64,000 nt of DNA from Gemmatimonadota bacterium (GTDB lineage: Bacteria; Latescibacterota; UBA2968; UBA8231), in NCBI GenBank assembly GCA_018660835.1, contig JABJJN010000072.1, forward strand, positions 1 to 64,000, written 5' to 3'. The translations under genes were made by a program, and so were the position numbers. Of the stretch, positions 51,418 through 58,466 are shown in pieces. The notes under the pieces are model-generated. The model saw only the letters and a program-made list of their open reading frames with translations. It did not search any database and was not told where the DNA came from. Positions within the stretch are counted from its first letter, which is position 1, and each line of letters opens with the position of its first letter.

Positions 51418-51665
51418 TCCTTTCAGCCCTGGAGAAACTAGGAACCTCGTGCGTCCCTGCAGAGGCGCCAACCTGATTCGGACTCAGCACGTCGTCAAGT
51501 CGATCCCGGGCCTGAGATGTATGCGTTGCCGACTTGGACGAATGCCGGTTACCTTAGAAGGTAGCCTCGATGGTGTTGTGCGCCTTCGGTTTTCGCTACC
51601 CCATCATTGCCAGCCACTGTGCCGGCATAAACACCTACGGGCCCCTTACTTTATTGAATCTCACG

Positions 51666-52211
51666 ATGTGTAGAAGTCTTCGACAGTTGATCTACGCGAG
51701 CATCGTGATGCTCTGTGCTTGTGCAGGCATCACGCCTGCACCTCGCTATACGGGCGGTCAGTCGACGACATCGACCGCAACAACTGCGATCGGATCGGAA
51801 CTCAAGACTCGCCAGCGGGCACGTCTTCAGGGTGGTGACCGTCGCTTGATGGGCGTGATCGAGGGCTATCTCGGCATTCCATATCTGTGGGGTGGCACCA
51901 CGCGTCGCGGCATGGACTGCTCGGCGCTGACACGTGCCGTCGTCCGTGAAGCCTACGGGGTCGAATTGCCACGCACCTCCCGGCAGATGTACGAACTTGG
52001 CAAACCGACGGATCGCCAGAAACTACGTGCCGGTGACCTGGTATTTTTCCGCATCGACGACTCAGGGCCTGGCGTGTCTCATGTCGGGATCTATGTCGGC
52101 GATGGCCAGTTCGCTCACGCCAGTTCCAGCCGTGGGGCAGTAATCGACCCACTCGGCTCCTCCTATTTCGACAAGCGCTATGCAGGCGCCCGCCGCATCC
52201 TTCTGGACTGA
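51666..52211 (+). CDS. NlpC/P60-family cell wall hydrolase lipoprotein
   Basis: LCAC lipobox, GIPYLWGGTTRRGMDCSALTRAV, SHVGIYVGDGQFAHASS. Confidence 0.92.
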   Translation: MCRSLRQLIYASIVMLCACAGITPAPRYTGGQSTTSTATTAIGSELKTRQRARLQGGDRRLMGVIEGYLGIPYLWGGTTRRGMDCSALTRAVVREAYGVELPRTSRQMYELGKPTDRQKLRAGDLVFFRIDDSGPGVSHVGIYVGDGQFAHASSSRGAVIDPLGSSYFDKRYAGARRILLD

Positions 52212-53589
52212 GTTTTCGTCCACGTCACGAATTGTGTGGTTTGGCGCCGCACTGTGCCTGGCCGCCACCGTGGGGTTGCAGAGCATCGACGATCTGGCTC
52301 TCAGAGTAGAGCAGGTGTGGGCGTGGTCTCTGCTTTGCCTGGTTGGCTGCGGTCTCATCGTCTGGCGAGTGCGCCAGGCGCATGTCTCCCTCGGGGTCAT
52401 TCTCGTCACTGCGGCGTTGATGCGACTGATTTTGCTGCCGACGGAGCCAAGCCTTTCTGAAGATATCTATCGCTACCTCTGGGATGGTCGCGTGCAAAAC
52501 GCCGGGATGAATCCCTATACCCACGCACCGGATAGTGAAGCGGTCGCCCACCTGCGCGACTCACGATGGAGCCGCATCAATCACCGCCAGGTGCCCACGG
52601 TCTATCCTCCCTTCGCCCAATGGATCTTTGCGGCAGCTACCGGGCTCGGTGGCGGCGCGACAAGTCTGAAGTTTGTGCTCCTGTTGTTTGATGCCATCAC
52701 CATCTGTGCCATCATGGGTCTCCTGCGACAGCGACATCGGGACCCGGCCTGGGTCTCGCTATACGCCCTGCATCCCTTGCCCCTGCTGGAGATTGCCGGG
52801 TCGGGGCATGTGGATGCAATCGGCATCGGTGCACTGATGGCGAGTCTCTTCTGGTTGGGTCAGTCGCGCCGGTGGCTGGCAGCGGCAGGCCTCGCCGTCG
52901 CGACAATGGCCAAATTAATCCCCGTCATCTGCGCTGTTGCCTTCTGGCGCCACTGGCGGCCTGTCCATCGTGGCTGGTCAACGTGGATTGATCCACGACC
53001 TCGAGTGCCCTTCGCCCTGACGGCTGGGCTGATTGTCGGTGGATACGCAGTCTTCCTTGCAGATGGCACCGATATTTTTCGTGGGCTCCAGACATATGCT
53101 CTTAAGTGGAGATTTAACGATAGCGTCTTCTCGATCGTCTATGATCTACTACGAGATCCGTCTCTCACCTGGGACGATCCGGCCCTGTTACTTGCCCGCA
53201 AGATTTGTGGTGCCCTGTGGATCGGATGGATGCTTTGGGTTATGCGCTGGCGAGATCCACTGCGGATCAGTTTCGGGCTCCTCGGAGCCTACATCGTGTT
53301 GTCACCCACGGTCCATCCTTGGTATTTGCTCTGGGTCCTGCCATTTCTGTCCGTCTTCCCGAGACCGGCATGGATCTTCTGGAGTTGGTCAATCCTGCTG
53401 TCCTATGAAGTGCTAACTGGCTATCGGCAGAGTGGGATATGGGAACCATCGTCGTGGGTGTGGTGGGCGCAGTATGCACCCTTTTTCCTCCTGCTTGTTG
53501 TCGATGGTTGGCGGCTGGGGAGCAATCGTTGGCAGACCAGATGGGCGCAGAATGCACCCAAGGAACAGTCTTTGGCATCCGACGTCTGA
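52180..53589 (+). CDS. GT-C type membrane glycosyltransferase
   Basis: Many TM helices, EPSLSEDIYRYLWDGRVQNAGMNPY, YPPFAQWIFA. Confidence 0.78.
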   Translation: MQAPAASFWTEFSSTSRIVWFGAALCLAATVGLQSIDDLALRVEQVWAWSLLCLVGCGLIVWRVRQAHVSLGVILVTAALMRLILLPTEPSLSEDIYRYLWDGRVQNAGMNPYTHAPDSEAVAHLRDSRWSRINHRQVPTVYPPFAQWIFAAATGLGGGATSLKFVLLLFDAITICAIMGLLRQRHRDPAWVSLYALHPLPLLEIAGSGHVDAIGIGALMASLFWLGQSRRWLAAAGLAVATMAKLIPVICAVAFWRHWRPVHRGWSTWIDPRPRVPFALTAGLIVGGYAVFLADGTDIFRGLQTYALKWRFNDSVFSIVYDLLRDPSLTWDDPALLLARKICGALWIGWMLWVMRWRDPLRISFGLLGAYIVLSPTVHPWYLLWVLPFLSVFPRPAWIFWSWSILLSYEVLTGYRQSGIWEPSSWVWWAQYAPFFLLLVVDGWRLGSNRWQTRWAQNAPKEQSLASDV

Positions 53590-53694: not shown

Positions 53695-54459
53695 ATGGTA
53701 TCAAGACGAAACTCGATCACCTGTGCACTGTTGGTCGCTGGCCTCACACTCAGTGGCTGCATGCAAACAGTGCGCCGTCCAACTCAAAGTGCGCCATGGT
53801 GGGCAACGCAGGTCGATCTCGAATCGCCGTCATCAGCAGGTGGAGGTGTAGCGGACTCGCTGGCTGCAAGCCGGCTGGATTCCAGCACTCACGATGCAGT
53901 GGATGACATCAGCCGTGCGGACTCGCTGGCAGTCGCTCCTGATTCCGAGACATCGACGAGCCTGCCCATGGCAGGACCACGGATCTACGGCATCGGCCCT
54001 ATCGAGCAGTCCGAGGAACACGACCATCCAGACGTTGTAGAGTTGAGTGACGCCCAGCGCAGGCAGATGCGAGACTCGGCAGCCAGGCGCAGTGGCGAGG
54101 AACGTGATCGGGTAGAACAGGTGAATGCGTATGCCCTATGGTGCGTCGAACGCGAGATGTGGGCAGAAGCACGTACCCATCTGGAGCAGGCCGTGGCAAG
54201 AGACAGTCTGGCCTCGAGTCTGCACAACAATCTGGGCATCCTGTACGAGCGCCTCGGTGAACCCGTGAAGGCACGTGCAGCGTATGAACGCGCCCTCGTG
54301 CTCCAACCGGGCAAGGGTGCGTATCAGAGCAATCTTCGCCGTCTGGACGGTGCCGATGTCAGCCACTCAGAGGACGACAAGGAGCATCTGCGACGACGAA
54401 GCGACTACGATCAGAGTGGTGATCAAACAGACGATCTGTTCAGAATGGTGCATGATTGA
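53695..54459 (+). CDS. TPR-containing lipoprotein
   Basis: LTLSGCMQ lipobox; TPR-like ARTHLEQAVARDSLASSLHNNLGILYERLGEPVKARAAYERALVLQPG. Confidence 0.8.
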   Translation: MVSRRNSITCALLVAGLTLSGCMQTVRRPTQSAPWWATQVDLESPSSAGGGVADSLAASRLDSSTHDAVDDISRADSLAVAPDSETSTSLPMAGPRIYGIGPIEQSEEHDHPDVVELSDAQRRQMRDSAARRSGEERDRVEQVNAYALWCVEREMWAEARTHLEQAVARDSLASSLHNNLGILYERLGEPVKARAAYERALVLQPGKGAYQSNLRRLDGADVSHSEDDKEHLRRRSDYDQSGDQTDDLFRMVHD

Positions 54460-57400
54460 GAACCGAAAAGGTCCGCGCGTGATTATCCCCTCCCTGTTTC
54501 GCACGCTCGTGTTGTTGGCGGCATGCCTCATGCTGCCCATTCCATCTGCTGCTCAGGATATCGTCTCTTCTCAGTTGCGTCAGGGGTTTGGTCGCAACAA
54601 GGTCCGCTACAAGGCCTTTGACTGGCACTTCGTGGAGAGTGAGCATCTGCTGCTCCACTACGAACCAGAATTTGAAGATCTCGCCGATCGAGCCGTCGAA
54701 TACCTCGAGGACGCGTACGCCCACATCAGCGGGATCATGCGACATGAGCTGTCGACGAAACCACCGATCGTCATCTTCAAGTCACACTATGAGTTCCAGC
54801 AGACCAATATCATCCAGTCCTTCCTGCCTCCCGGTGTCGCCGGTTTCGCCGAGCCTCTGAGATATCGGATGGTCATCCCCTTCAATGGGGATCTGGATGA
54901 CTTCAACAATGTCCTCACCCATGAGTTGATGCACATCTTTCAGTATGACGTGGTCAACCGGGGACCCGTCAAGCGGATTTCTAATCCCATTGCCAGTCCA
55001 CCGACGTGGATCATGGAGGGGATGGCAGAATACTCGACGCAGGAAATGAATACCATCGATGAGATGGTCCTGCGCGATGCTGTGCTCACGGATGGCCTGA
55101 TCCCGCTGGAAGTGATGGATGCGAGCTGGCACTATCTGCCGAATCCCTTCCTCGCGTACAAGCAGAGCCACAGCATCGTCGAATATATCGCGGACAATTT
55201 CGGTCCTGAAAAAGTGAGCCGCATGCTGCGCGCCTGGGATCGCCAGAGTGGCTCAGATCGTCTGCTCGAACGCCTGATAGATATGGACATGGAGGCCCTC
55301 GACGAGCGCTGGCAGGCGCATATGCGCAAAACCTACTGGCCGCTGCTGCAGACACGGGACTACGTATCGGAATTCGCTGAACGCATTATAGAATCAGACG
55401 ATTTCTTCGGACTCTATACGTCTCCCGACTGGTCTCTGGGGGGCGACATGCTGGCCGTGCTGAGCACCGACGGTGTTGAGCAGCATGTAGACATCATTCG
55501 AATAAGCAGTGGCAAGCTGGTCGAACGCGTCAGCAGTGGTATGCGTACGCGGCAGTATGATGATTTGACGTTCAACGATGGTACCGTCGCCTGGGGTGCC
55601 GATGGACGTACCATCGCGTTCGTCGCAAAGGACGGATCTGCAGACCGGATTTTGCTCTGGGACCTGTACGACAAACGCCTGGGGACTTCCTTCACATTTG
55701 AAGGGATTGAGATCATCGAAGGTCTTGATTTTGATCCCACCAGTGGACGTCTTGCTTTTGTCGGCACAGGCTACGGCCAGAGCGATGTCTACGTCGTCGA
55801 CACAGCGACGGGTGAGCTGCAGCAGATCACTGGCACACCACAACGCGACAGTTACCCTTCCTTCAGTCCTGATGGTCGCTATCTGGCCTACAGTGCCAAG
55901 CAGGGCCACCAATTCGACATTCGCGCCTACGACTTTGACAATGATACGGTGTCGACGATTGTCGCTTCACCGACTGATGATCTGTGGCCCGAGTGGCTCC
56001 CCGCAGGCAACAAGATCCTCTTTGTCTCCACGCGCGACGGGATCAACGATCTGTTCGTCTACCATATGGAGCAGGAGCAAGAGTATCGGCTCACACGTAC
56101 CGTCAGTGGCATCATGGCGCCGCGATTGTCTCCGGATGGTCAACAGGTCGTTATGAGCACGTACTATCATGGGCGTCGTGAACTGTATCTAATGGACATG
56201 CCTTCCTGGCCGGAGATCAGACGCAAGGATGGAGAACTGGCCGCGCGTGCGAGCGGCGCATCTGGCCAAGAGGCCGCCGCAGCGAAGGTCGACAGGGCAG
56301 AACAAGCGCAGTCTGTGTCGCAGCCAATAGAGAGGGTCGAGACTTCCACGCGCCTGGGTCTGGAGGAGGCAGTGGCCCTGCTCGCCCAGAAGGAACGCGG
56401 GAACCAGGCCGTGAAACTCGCGGACACACGTACAGATATGAGTGATGAGACGATATCGAGCGTCTCCTCGTCACCGACTGTGGCCACTGCCGACATCGAG
56501 TTGTCGAGTTTCTTTGACGACGACCTCGACCTGGAGCACCTGCCACGTCGTCGATATCGGCCAAAGCTTGAATTCGACGGTATTTCCTTGCAGGCCGGTT
56601 ACTACTCCGGCTTCCTGTCGGGTATCGCCCAGCTGAGCATGAGTGATCTGCTAGGCAATCACTCTGCGAGTATGTTCACCGACTATGTCGGGTCACAGGA
56701 GATCAGCAATGATTTCACCTTCGCCCTCAGCTACGCCTATTTCGGTCGTCGCGCCACGTACAGCGCGACGATATTCAACTGGAATCAGTATTACAACGAC
56801 ACGCAGGGGCGCGGTCCAGTCGGCGGCTACTACCCCGTTGGCACAACAAGCCTGACACAGGGGCTGATTCGATCACGACAAAGTGGCCTGCTCGCGGACG
56901 TCACCTATCCTCTCGATGTGTTCCGTCGAGTCGAACTTTCATATTCCTTCGTCGACGAGGTTCGTGAGGTCGCCTGGCCTGTGACAGAACCGGTAGAGGC
57001 TTTTGGCACACACCTGGTCAAGACAGCCTATGTCCATGATTCACTGAACAATGGACTCCTTGGCCCGACGGCGGGACGCCGCTACTACATATCGATCGGA
57101 CGTGCCTTCGAGCTTGTGGATGGCGATCGATCCTTCACGCATCTGGAAGCCGACTATCGTCACTATTTCAGACTTGGCAGGTGGTCCGTTTTGGGAATCC
57201 GGGGAGTCGGAGTCGGTTCACTCGGCCGCGACGGGCTTGCCTACAATCTGGGCGGCCCTGCCTGGTTTCTGCCATTCTCTCCTGGTTACAACCTCAACCT
57301 GGGTCCGCTGCGGGGTTATTCATTCTCCGAATTCAGCGGCTCTCGTGTGGTACTGCTGAATTCGGAAGTTCGCGTTCCCTTCATTCGCAATATCACCTTT

Positions 57401-57679
57401 GGCTGGCCGGGGAATTTCGCCATCCCCGCCGTGGACGGTGCGTTTTTCGTCGATGTGGGGGGAGCCTGGAACAAGGGCCAGGATCTGAACCTGTGGCCGT
57501 TGCAGGATCCTCTGATTCCATACAGTCCCGCCACGGATGAAGCACGACTGCAGGGCGGCATGGGCTTCAGTTTCCTCGTCTACTTTTTGGCACCACTCAA
57601 CTTCGAATTTGCGCGCCGCACAGATTTCCGCGAATACTCCGACTGGCGCATGCATTTCAGCTTCGGTAAGGCCTTCTAA
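54452..57679 (+). CDS. HExxH peptidase - TolB-like beta-propeller - Omp85/BamA-type barrel fusion
   Basis: Signal peptide; NVLTHELMHIFQYD and WIMEGMAEY; repeated FSPDGRYLAYSA / LSPDGQQVVMS; C-terminal barrel ending MHFSFGKAF. Confidence 0.88.
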   Translation: MIENRKGPRVIIPSLFRTLVLLAACLMLPIPSAAQDIVSSQLRQGFGRNKVRYKAFDWHFVESEHLLLHYEPEFEDLADRAVEYLEDAYAHISGIMRHELSTKPPIVIFKSHYEFQQTNIIQSFLPPGVAGFAEPLRYRMVIPFNGDLDDFNNVLTHELMHIFQYDVVNRGPVKRISNPIASPPTWIMEGMAEYSTQEMNTIDEMVLRDAVLTDGLIPLEVMDASWHYLPNPFLAYKQSHSIVEYIADNFGPEKVSRMLRAWDRQSGSDRLLERLIDMDMEALDERWQAHMRKTYWPLLQTRDYVSEFAERIIESDDFFGLYTSPDWSLGGDMLAVLSTDGVEQHVDIIRISSGKLVERVSSGMRTRQYDDLTFNDGTVAWGADGRTIAFVAKDGSADRILLWDLYDKRLGTSFTFEGIEIIEGLDFDPTSGRLAFVGTGYGQSDVYVVDTATGELQQITGTPQRDSYPSFSPDGRYLAYSAKQGHQFDIRAYDFDNDTVSTIVASPTDDLWPEWLPAGNKILFVSTRDGINDLFVYHMEQEQEYRLTRTVSGIMAPRLSPDGQQVVMSTYYHGRRELYLMDMPSWPEIRRKDGELAARASGASGQEAAAAKVDRAEQAQSVSQPIERVETSTRLGLEEAVALLAQKERGNQAVKLADTRTDMSDETISSVSSSPTVATADIELSSFFDDDLDLEHLPRRRYRPKLEFDGISLQAGYYSGFLSGIAQLSMSDLLGNHSASMFTDYVGSQEISNDFTFALSYAYFGRRATYSATIFNWNQYYNDTQGRGPVGGYYPVGTTSLTQGLIRSRQSGLLADVTYPLDVFRRVELSYSFVDEVREVAWPVTEPVEAFGTHLVKTAYVHDSLNNGLLGPTAGRRYYISIGRAFELVDGDRSFTHLEADYRHYFRLGRWSVLGIRGVGVGSLGRDGLAYNLGGPAWFLPFSPGYNLNLGPLRGYSFSEFSGSRVVLLNSEVRVPFIRNITFGWPGNFAIPAVDGAFFVDVGGAWNKGQDLNLWPLQDPLIPYSPATDEARLQGGMGFSFLVYFLAPLNFEFARRTDFREYSDWRMHFSFGKAF

Positions 57680-58380
57680 TGCAGCGCTGGTTAATTTCCC
57701 TGCTGGTCCTTTCCCTGATGGCCTGTTCGGGACGTGTTCCTGGACGTAGTACAGTGCCCGTTGAATTTCGCGCCCCATCGGTCCCCGATTCGGAAGTTCA
57801 ACCCATCCTGCAGGATGTCATGGTCGTCGGCGTCGTATCCGAGACAAACATTGAGCCTCAGCGCAATGTTGATATCGAGCGGATCATGGGCCGATTGACA
57901 GACGCCACCGCTCGTGGGCTACGAAATCTGACGGATCGGCGCGTCGTGAGTCAGGACGAGATTCGCTGGCATTTCAAGGATATTGTCCTCGACTCTTCCC
58001 ACGTTTTCAGTGACAGTGTGATGCTGCAGATGCGGGAGGATCTTGAGTTGGACGCGCTCGTGCATGTGTCCCTGCGCGGCATGGAAGCGCACATGACGGC
58101 CGTGTCTCCTGGTCCCCAGGGCCGCGCCGTACACGCTCCTGGTGTAAATCTCACAGTCGAACTCGAGTTGACGTTGGTGAATCTCGTCAGCGGCGACCGC
58201 TGGACGCAGAAGGGTAAGCGGAGCAGTTGGGAACCTGTACAGCGAGACGTGGTGGGTGGGGGAGATCGCACAGAGCAGCAATTGCTGACCGCTCTGGCTG
58301 GCCCCATGCGTGAGTTCCTCTCACGGGTGTCTCCTCCTCCGCGTCGACAGCTTCGTCAGTTCGATGTGAGTGGTGACTGA
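57679..58380 (+). CDS. Uncharacterised lipoprotein coupled to the Omp85 fusion
   Basis: LLVLSLMACSG lipobox; TAATG overlap with upstream gene. Confidence 0.7.
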   Translation: MQRWLISLLVLSLMACSGRVPGRSTVPVEFRAPSVPDSEVQPILQDVMVVGVVSETNIEPQRNVDIERIMGRLTDATARGLRNLTDRRVVSQDEIRWHFKDIVLDSSHVFSDSVMLQMREDLELDALVHVSLRGMEAHMTAVSPGPQGRAVHAPGVNLTVELELTLVNLVSGDRWTQKGKRSSWEPVQRDVVGGGDRTEQQLLTALAGPMREFLSRVSPPPRRQLRQFDVSGD

Positions 58381-58427: not shown

Positions 58428-58466
58428 AAAAAGGGCGCCCCTCCTGCAGGAGGGGCGCCCTTTTTT
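58428..58466. terminator. Bidirectional intrinsic terminator
   Basis: AAAAAGGGCGCCCCTCC-TGCA-GGAGGGGCGCCCTTTTTT between convergent genes. Confidence 0.95.

Follow-up and report, generated by a model that had tools for sequence, protein, structure and literature searches.

What might a single bacterial protein do with a peptidase, a propeller and an outer-membrane barrel in one chain? The window (the whole stretch of 64,000 nucleotides analyzed here) comes from an uncultured bacterium and carries a three-gene plus-strand operon that encodes, in order, a TPR lipoprotein, a 1075-residue fusion protein and a second lipoprotein. A first-pass annotation proposed that these genes encode an undescribed, self-contained envelope system. 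We asked whether the fusion has the claimed modules, how far the trio is conserved and which function the evidence favors.

The TPR lipoprotein P0001 (254 aa; 53695-54459, +) has a signal peptide with an LSGC lipobox and matches Pfam TPR_2 at 5.2e-10. Its gene overlaps that of the fusion, P0002 (1075 aa; 54452-57679, +), by 8 nt, and the fusion gene in turn overlaps that of the second lipoprotein, P0003 (233 aa; 57679-58380, +), at a TAATG junction. When the sequence was re-read, the annotated coordinates of the three genes and both junctions proved correct, as did the position of the HExxH motif. A strong terminator had been claimed downstream. At 58428-58465, between convergent genes, we find a perfect inverted repeat of 19 nt with runs of A and T. 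We grade it as a likely terminator, and its palindromic form means that it could act on either strand. Upstream of the trio, positions 51570-53589 encode an NlpC/P60 protein and a GT87-like protein, which are also found near the trio in most loci of the window's family.

Architecture of the fusion protein and its lipoprotein partners

The fusion protein is ordered as a signal peptide, a gluzincin peptidase, a TolB-like propeller, a linker and an Omp85 barrel. Pfam profiles for all three modules score above their cut-offs: Peptidase_MA_2 with 54.8 bits (cut-off 32.4), PD40 with 65.7 bits (cut-off 20.9; 2.9e-18) and Omp85 (PF01103) with 31.6 bits (cut-off 24; 1.6e-07). No Pfam match to a POTRA domain was found in the chain. 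The AlphaFold2 model (pLDDT 82.4, pTM 0.81) contains a helical peptidase domain, the propeller, the linker and the barrel. Foldseek searches with this model ranked TolB at the top, with BamA (F. johnsoniae BamAP among the matches) lower in the list; whole-chain TM-scores were low because each match spans one domain. Thus, the initial reading of three modules in one chain is borne out by profiles, model and fold matches, and the structure prediction proposed as a check on that reading yielded both barrel and propeller. A type I signal peptide seems likely, because the cysteine within it is unconserved; we rejected the alternative that the fusion is itself a lipoprotein, since the LAAC of the signal peptide is not kept among orthologues.

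The peptidase domain spans residues 45-305 (54584-55366, +) and matches Peptidase_MA_2 at 1e-15 when searched alone. It contains the zinc-binding/catalytic motif HELMH (H157, E158 and H161; 54920-54934, +) and the sequence EGMAEY (55016-55033, +), which carries an EGxxE signature and the presumed third zinc ligand, E189. We aligned 65 relatives drawn from about ten phylum-level groups and found that H157, E158, H161, E189, G190 and E193 are identical in every one. Peptidase_MA_2 was also matched by the peptidase domains of 30/30 relatives. The profile score, together with the HExxH motif and the downstream glutamate, places the domain in the Peptidase MA (gluzincin, PF13485) group. Judged from the alignment, the invariant site argues against a chance HExxH motif or a dead enzyme, and we rejected both; the fusion is probably a proteolytically active zinc metallopeptidase. 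Searches against solved structures gave weak matches only, the best at E 0.023 and a collagenase at 0.077. Membership in M48, the family of BepA, was rejected, as the window's domain has no M48 match and only one of 30 relatives matches, at 0.0034.

The TolB-like propeller occupies residues about 320-583 (55409-56200, +), as delimited by PD40, DSSP strands and the TolB matches, and has about six blades by a strand count read from the DSSP list of the model. It is followed by a long helix and linker (residues about 586-698; 56207-56545, +), with pLDDT <50 at residues 614-690. The chain is not TolB itself, scoring 110.3 bits on TIGR02800 against an equivalog cut-off of 343.15, with the propeller alone matching. 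The fusion could still stand in for TolB, with the propeller connecting a Tol-Pal-like system to the outer membrane and the barrel taking the place of the usual anchor. TolB is the top fold match, the TIGR02800 match is significant at 1e-31, and the window's own genome has no TolB above the equivalog cut-off, which is a weak test given that only 2/14 control genomes reach that value. Yet we found no match to the TolB N-terminal domain among Pfam and NCBIfam profiles and recognized no Tol or Pal gene in the neighborhoods inspected, and a stand-in role would leave the invariant protease site unexplained. We therefore regard this explanation as very improbable.

The barrel (residues about 699-1075; 56546-57676, +) was delimited by the Omp85 profile, the strand list and matches to BamA by Foldseek and profile search. 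By our own count from the DSSP assignment of the AlphaFold2 model, it has 16 long strands. The sequence PLRGY (57305-57319, +), the counterpart of the Omp85 loop-6 RGF/Y motif, falls between strands 11 and 12 of the model. Its R954 is found in 64/65 relatives and G955 in 65/65, and together with F999 and D1001 of the FxDxG strand motif each of these residues is present in at least 64/65. The profile score, strand number and both motifs place the barrel in the Omp85 superfamily. The fusion is not BamA, however, as it scores 29.4 bits on TIGR03303 against an equivalog cut-off of 297 and lacks POTRA domains. POTRA domains are the usual client- and partner-binding parts of Omp85 insertases.

Both flanking lipoproteins have conserved features. 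In P0001, Cys22 and the TPR core (residues about 140-213) are invariant among orthologues and the spacer is variable. In P0003, the lipobox Cys16 is invariant. P0003 matched no Pfam or NCBIfam family, and a sequence search of the PDB returned nothing convincing. Foldseek searches with its predicted model (pLDDT 82.3) matched outer-membrane lipoproteins of the CsgG/FlgT/GNA1162/PelC/LptE/LpoB type at E 5e-07 to 1e-03, with modest TM-scores of 0.25-0.67. P0003 may therefore resemble these proteins in fold, but it differs from them in sequence (~6-17% identity) and matched no sequence family.

Conservation of the trio and spread of the fusion

We searched 60 genomes, comprising the window's own and those of 59 relatives, and every one has a fusion homologue. 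Within the window's Latescibacterota-like family, 25/26 genomes have a close fusion orthologue and 25/26 have P0003, always in single copy; P0003 occurs in 0/39 other genomes of the phylum. The one family genome that lacks the two genes has a completeness of 73%. The TPR gene lies upstream of the fusion in all 23 family loci that have upstream sequence. The trio is on one strand in 25/25 family loci, and with start codons picked by rule, most junctions overlap or fall within 2 nt. The wider neighborhood is also kept in many of these loci. The suggestion that the trio is conserved across genomes is thus upheld, and this conservation among relatives led us to reject a gene-calling artefact or a trio peculiar to this genome.

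We then looked beyond the family with a pattern search of a genome collection, which matched at least 597 stretches, at least 507 of them encoding fusion relatives. The best 80 of these at least 507 relatives are labeled Latescibacterota, Zixibacteria, Eisenbacteria, Krumholzibacteria, KSB1, Calditrichota, Neomarinimicrobiota, Cloacimonadota, Gemmatimonadota and others, according to the submitters' own taxon labels, some of which are doubtful. Two loci labeled Gammaproteobacteria (L054) and Caldisericaceae (L099) cluster alongside loci of the Latescibacterota-like and Calditrichota sets, and for this reason we consider their labels or bins doubtful. The fusion is distributed across the FCB group and is not confined to this genome.

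Outside the family, two loci (L058 and L114) have a TPR gene and a gene for a lipoprotein-like protein of 224-230 aa directly upstream of the fusion. This protein shows a distant likeness to P0003 (hhalign probability 88.8, E 2.5e-06, thin alignments), and in a quick-method tree the two fusions are sister, with support 99, to the clade of Latescibacterota sequences in which the window's fusion falls. We read these loci as the three trio parts in altered order.

Other neighborhoods contain different genes, whose family labels (TamB, BamA-like, MlaE and MurA-like) rest on single tested representatives. At 12 other loci, the fusion is immediately preceded by a gene of one family, the tested representative of which is TamB (1.3e-33). 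In nine of these, the TamB-type gene itself follows a gene of another family, whose representative carries POTRA domains and scores above the BamA equivalog cut-off. An MlaE-family gene lies directly downstream of the fusion in five loci, and ten loci have an upstream family whose tested member is EPSP-synthase/MurA-like. Three KSB1-type loci (L080, L088 and L097) have a distinct small gene family of about 180-215 aa directly upstream; its L088 member matches no Pfam family.

Genomic context and proposed role

The window's own genome encodes additional relatives of the fusion. The gene of one paralogue (L139:2847-6838, contig C92) overlaps the following gene, which encodes a PQQ-propeller lipoprotein with BamB as its best NCBIfam match (1.7e-34, below the equivalog cut-off). 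This paralogue and the BamB-like gene, with a third small gene nearby, are kept in 9/9 other family genomes examined. A third, distant paralogue (L141, contig C41) has as neighbors a Peptidase_MA_2-like protein and proteins whose Por_Secre_tail matches fall short of the Pfam cut-off, the latter being a possible hint of type IX-like sorting. A fourth, divergent relative (L140, contig C50) is a 1160-aa HExxH protein with PD40 repeats and no Pfam Omp85 or peptidase match at 0.001. A BamA with five POTRA domains is also encoded in this genome, as are two TamB proteins whose genes adjoin Omp85 genes, indicating that the fusion system is an addition to the canonical machinery and not a replacement.

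The first-pass annotation suggested a role in protein maturation, export or quality control. Any such role is one that we infer, and the genomic context favors outer-membrane assembly or quality control. We tentatively propose, at a likelihood somewhat short of even, that the fusion system serves as an additional platform for outer-membrane assembly and quality control, working alongside canonical BamA and TamAB. The peptidase and propeller would sit in the periplasm beneath the fusion's own barrel, as suggested by the domain order and by the patatin-Omp85 protein PlpD, which has its N-terminal domain in the periplasm (PMC11116518). In the manner of BamB or TolB, the propeller would provide a docking site for client proteins and for the TPR and CsgG-fold lipoproteins. 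The barrel would assist in inserting or holding the client, and clients that stall would be cleaved by the HExxH peptidase, much as BepA does on BAM. The domains, the zinc site, the Omp85 motifs, the conserved operon and the gene neighborhoods are established computationally, whereas we infer complex formation, assembly activity, protease activity and clients; the assembly and checking role in particular is suggested by the Omp85 barrel, the BamA-TamB and BamB-like neighbors and the BepA precedent (PMC8423444). The three modules, the invariant zinc site, the linkage of the trio and the BamA-TamB, MlaE and BamB-like neighbors all count for an assembly platform. The lack of POTRA domains and the presence of canonical BamA and TamB count against it, as do the confinement of the trio lipoproteins to one clade and the fact that gene neighborhood is no proof of function. 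A broader version, in which an FCB-wide machine beside BAM and TAM combines insertion, client docking and proteolytic quality control in one chain, is conceivable but on balance doubtful; if true, lineage-specific lipoproteins would be its tuning parts.

PlpD shows that having an Omp85 barrel does not make a protein an insertase, and a PlpD-like anchored enzyme is the main rival to an assembly platform. The barrel would then be mainly an anchor or dimerization platform for a periplasmic metallopeptidase and would insert no barrels; candidate substrates include lipoproteins, cell-wall-linked proteins and lipid-transport components. PlpD is a dimeric Omp85 protein with a periplasmic enzyme domain for which, unlike other studied members, protein assembly has not been shown (PMC11116518). 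The missing POTRA domains and the MlaE-family and MurA-like neighbors in other phyla fit such an anchored enzyme, but the BamA-TamB and BamB-like neighbors suggest assembly, and a propeller with two lipoprotein partners exceeds what an anchored enzyme needs. We judge it rather unlikely. The barrel might instead serve to export a dedicated client to the surface, the peptidase being responsible for maturing it, as in two-partner secretion. Translocases do exist in the Omp85 family (PMC4104836), the CsgG-type fold predicted for P0003 is known from export systems, and the distant C41 paralogue lies beside the sub-threshold Por_Secre_tail matches. However, no constant client gene was found near the trio in the family loci inspected, the peptidase precedes the barrel and is thus on the expected periplasmic side, and TpsB-type POTRA domains are absent. 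Dedicated export is accordingly a distinctly poor candidate.

Relation to known Omp85 systems

The claim of an undescribed system holds in part. Heinz and Lithgow (2014) defined ten Omp85/TpsB subfamilies, among them WD40-Omp85, to which no function was assigned; its propeller was compared with TolB, and a likeness to a BamA-BamB fusion was suggested (PMC4104836). With an N-terminal propeller, no POTRA domain and a C-terminal Omp85 barrel, our fusion belongs by architecture to this subfamily, so the propeller-Omp85 combination has been known since 2014. The fusion itself is FCB-wide. By contrast, the text of PMC4104836 contains neither the word 'peptidase' nor any mention of the TPR and CsgG-fold lipoproteins. 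Among open-licence PMC papers we found no description of the peptidase domain, the lipoprotein partners or the BamA-TamB and BamB-like links, though one may exist elsewhere, and no paper on Latescibacter with Omp85. A 2024 paper described WD40-like Omp85 proteins as still not well characterized, and the large fusion appears never to have been characterized. The invariant metallopeptidase site, the two conserved lipoproteins and the BamA-TamB and BamB-like links turn this orphan architecture into testable hypotheses on how a large and mainly uncultured portion of bacteria assembles its outer membranes and controls their quality. We take PF00149 to be a metallophosphatase family. It is on PF00149 that the 'Omp85-metalloprotease' ('Metallo') subfamily of PMC4104836 rests, and the protease label was repeated in the 2024 paper.

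The fusion resembles PlpD in having an enzyme domain N-terminal to an Omp85 barrel, but PlpD combines a patatin lipase with one POTRA domain instead of a peptidase with a propeller. BepA is an E. coli M48 metallopeptidase that acts on BAM-bound LptD (PMC8423444). The fusion would likewise tie a periplasmic HExxH peptidase to an Omp85 assembly site, but its peptidase is of the Peptidase_MA_2 type and is covalently joined to the barrel. With BamA and BamB it shares an Omp85 barrel with loop-6 RGY and FxDxG motifs, a propeller partner and accessory lipoproteins; it differs in that the propeller is in the same chain and of the TolB (PD40) rather than the PQQ type, POTRA domains are missing and a peptidase is added. 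The whole might thus be likened to BamA, BamB and BepA in one chain.
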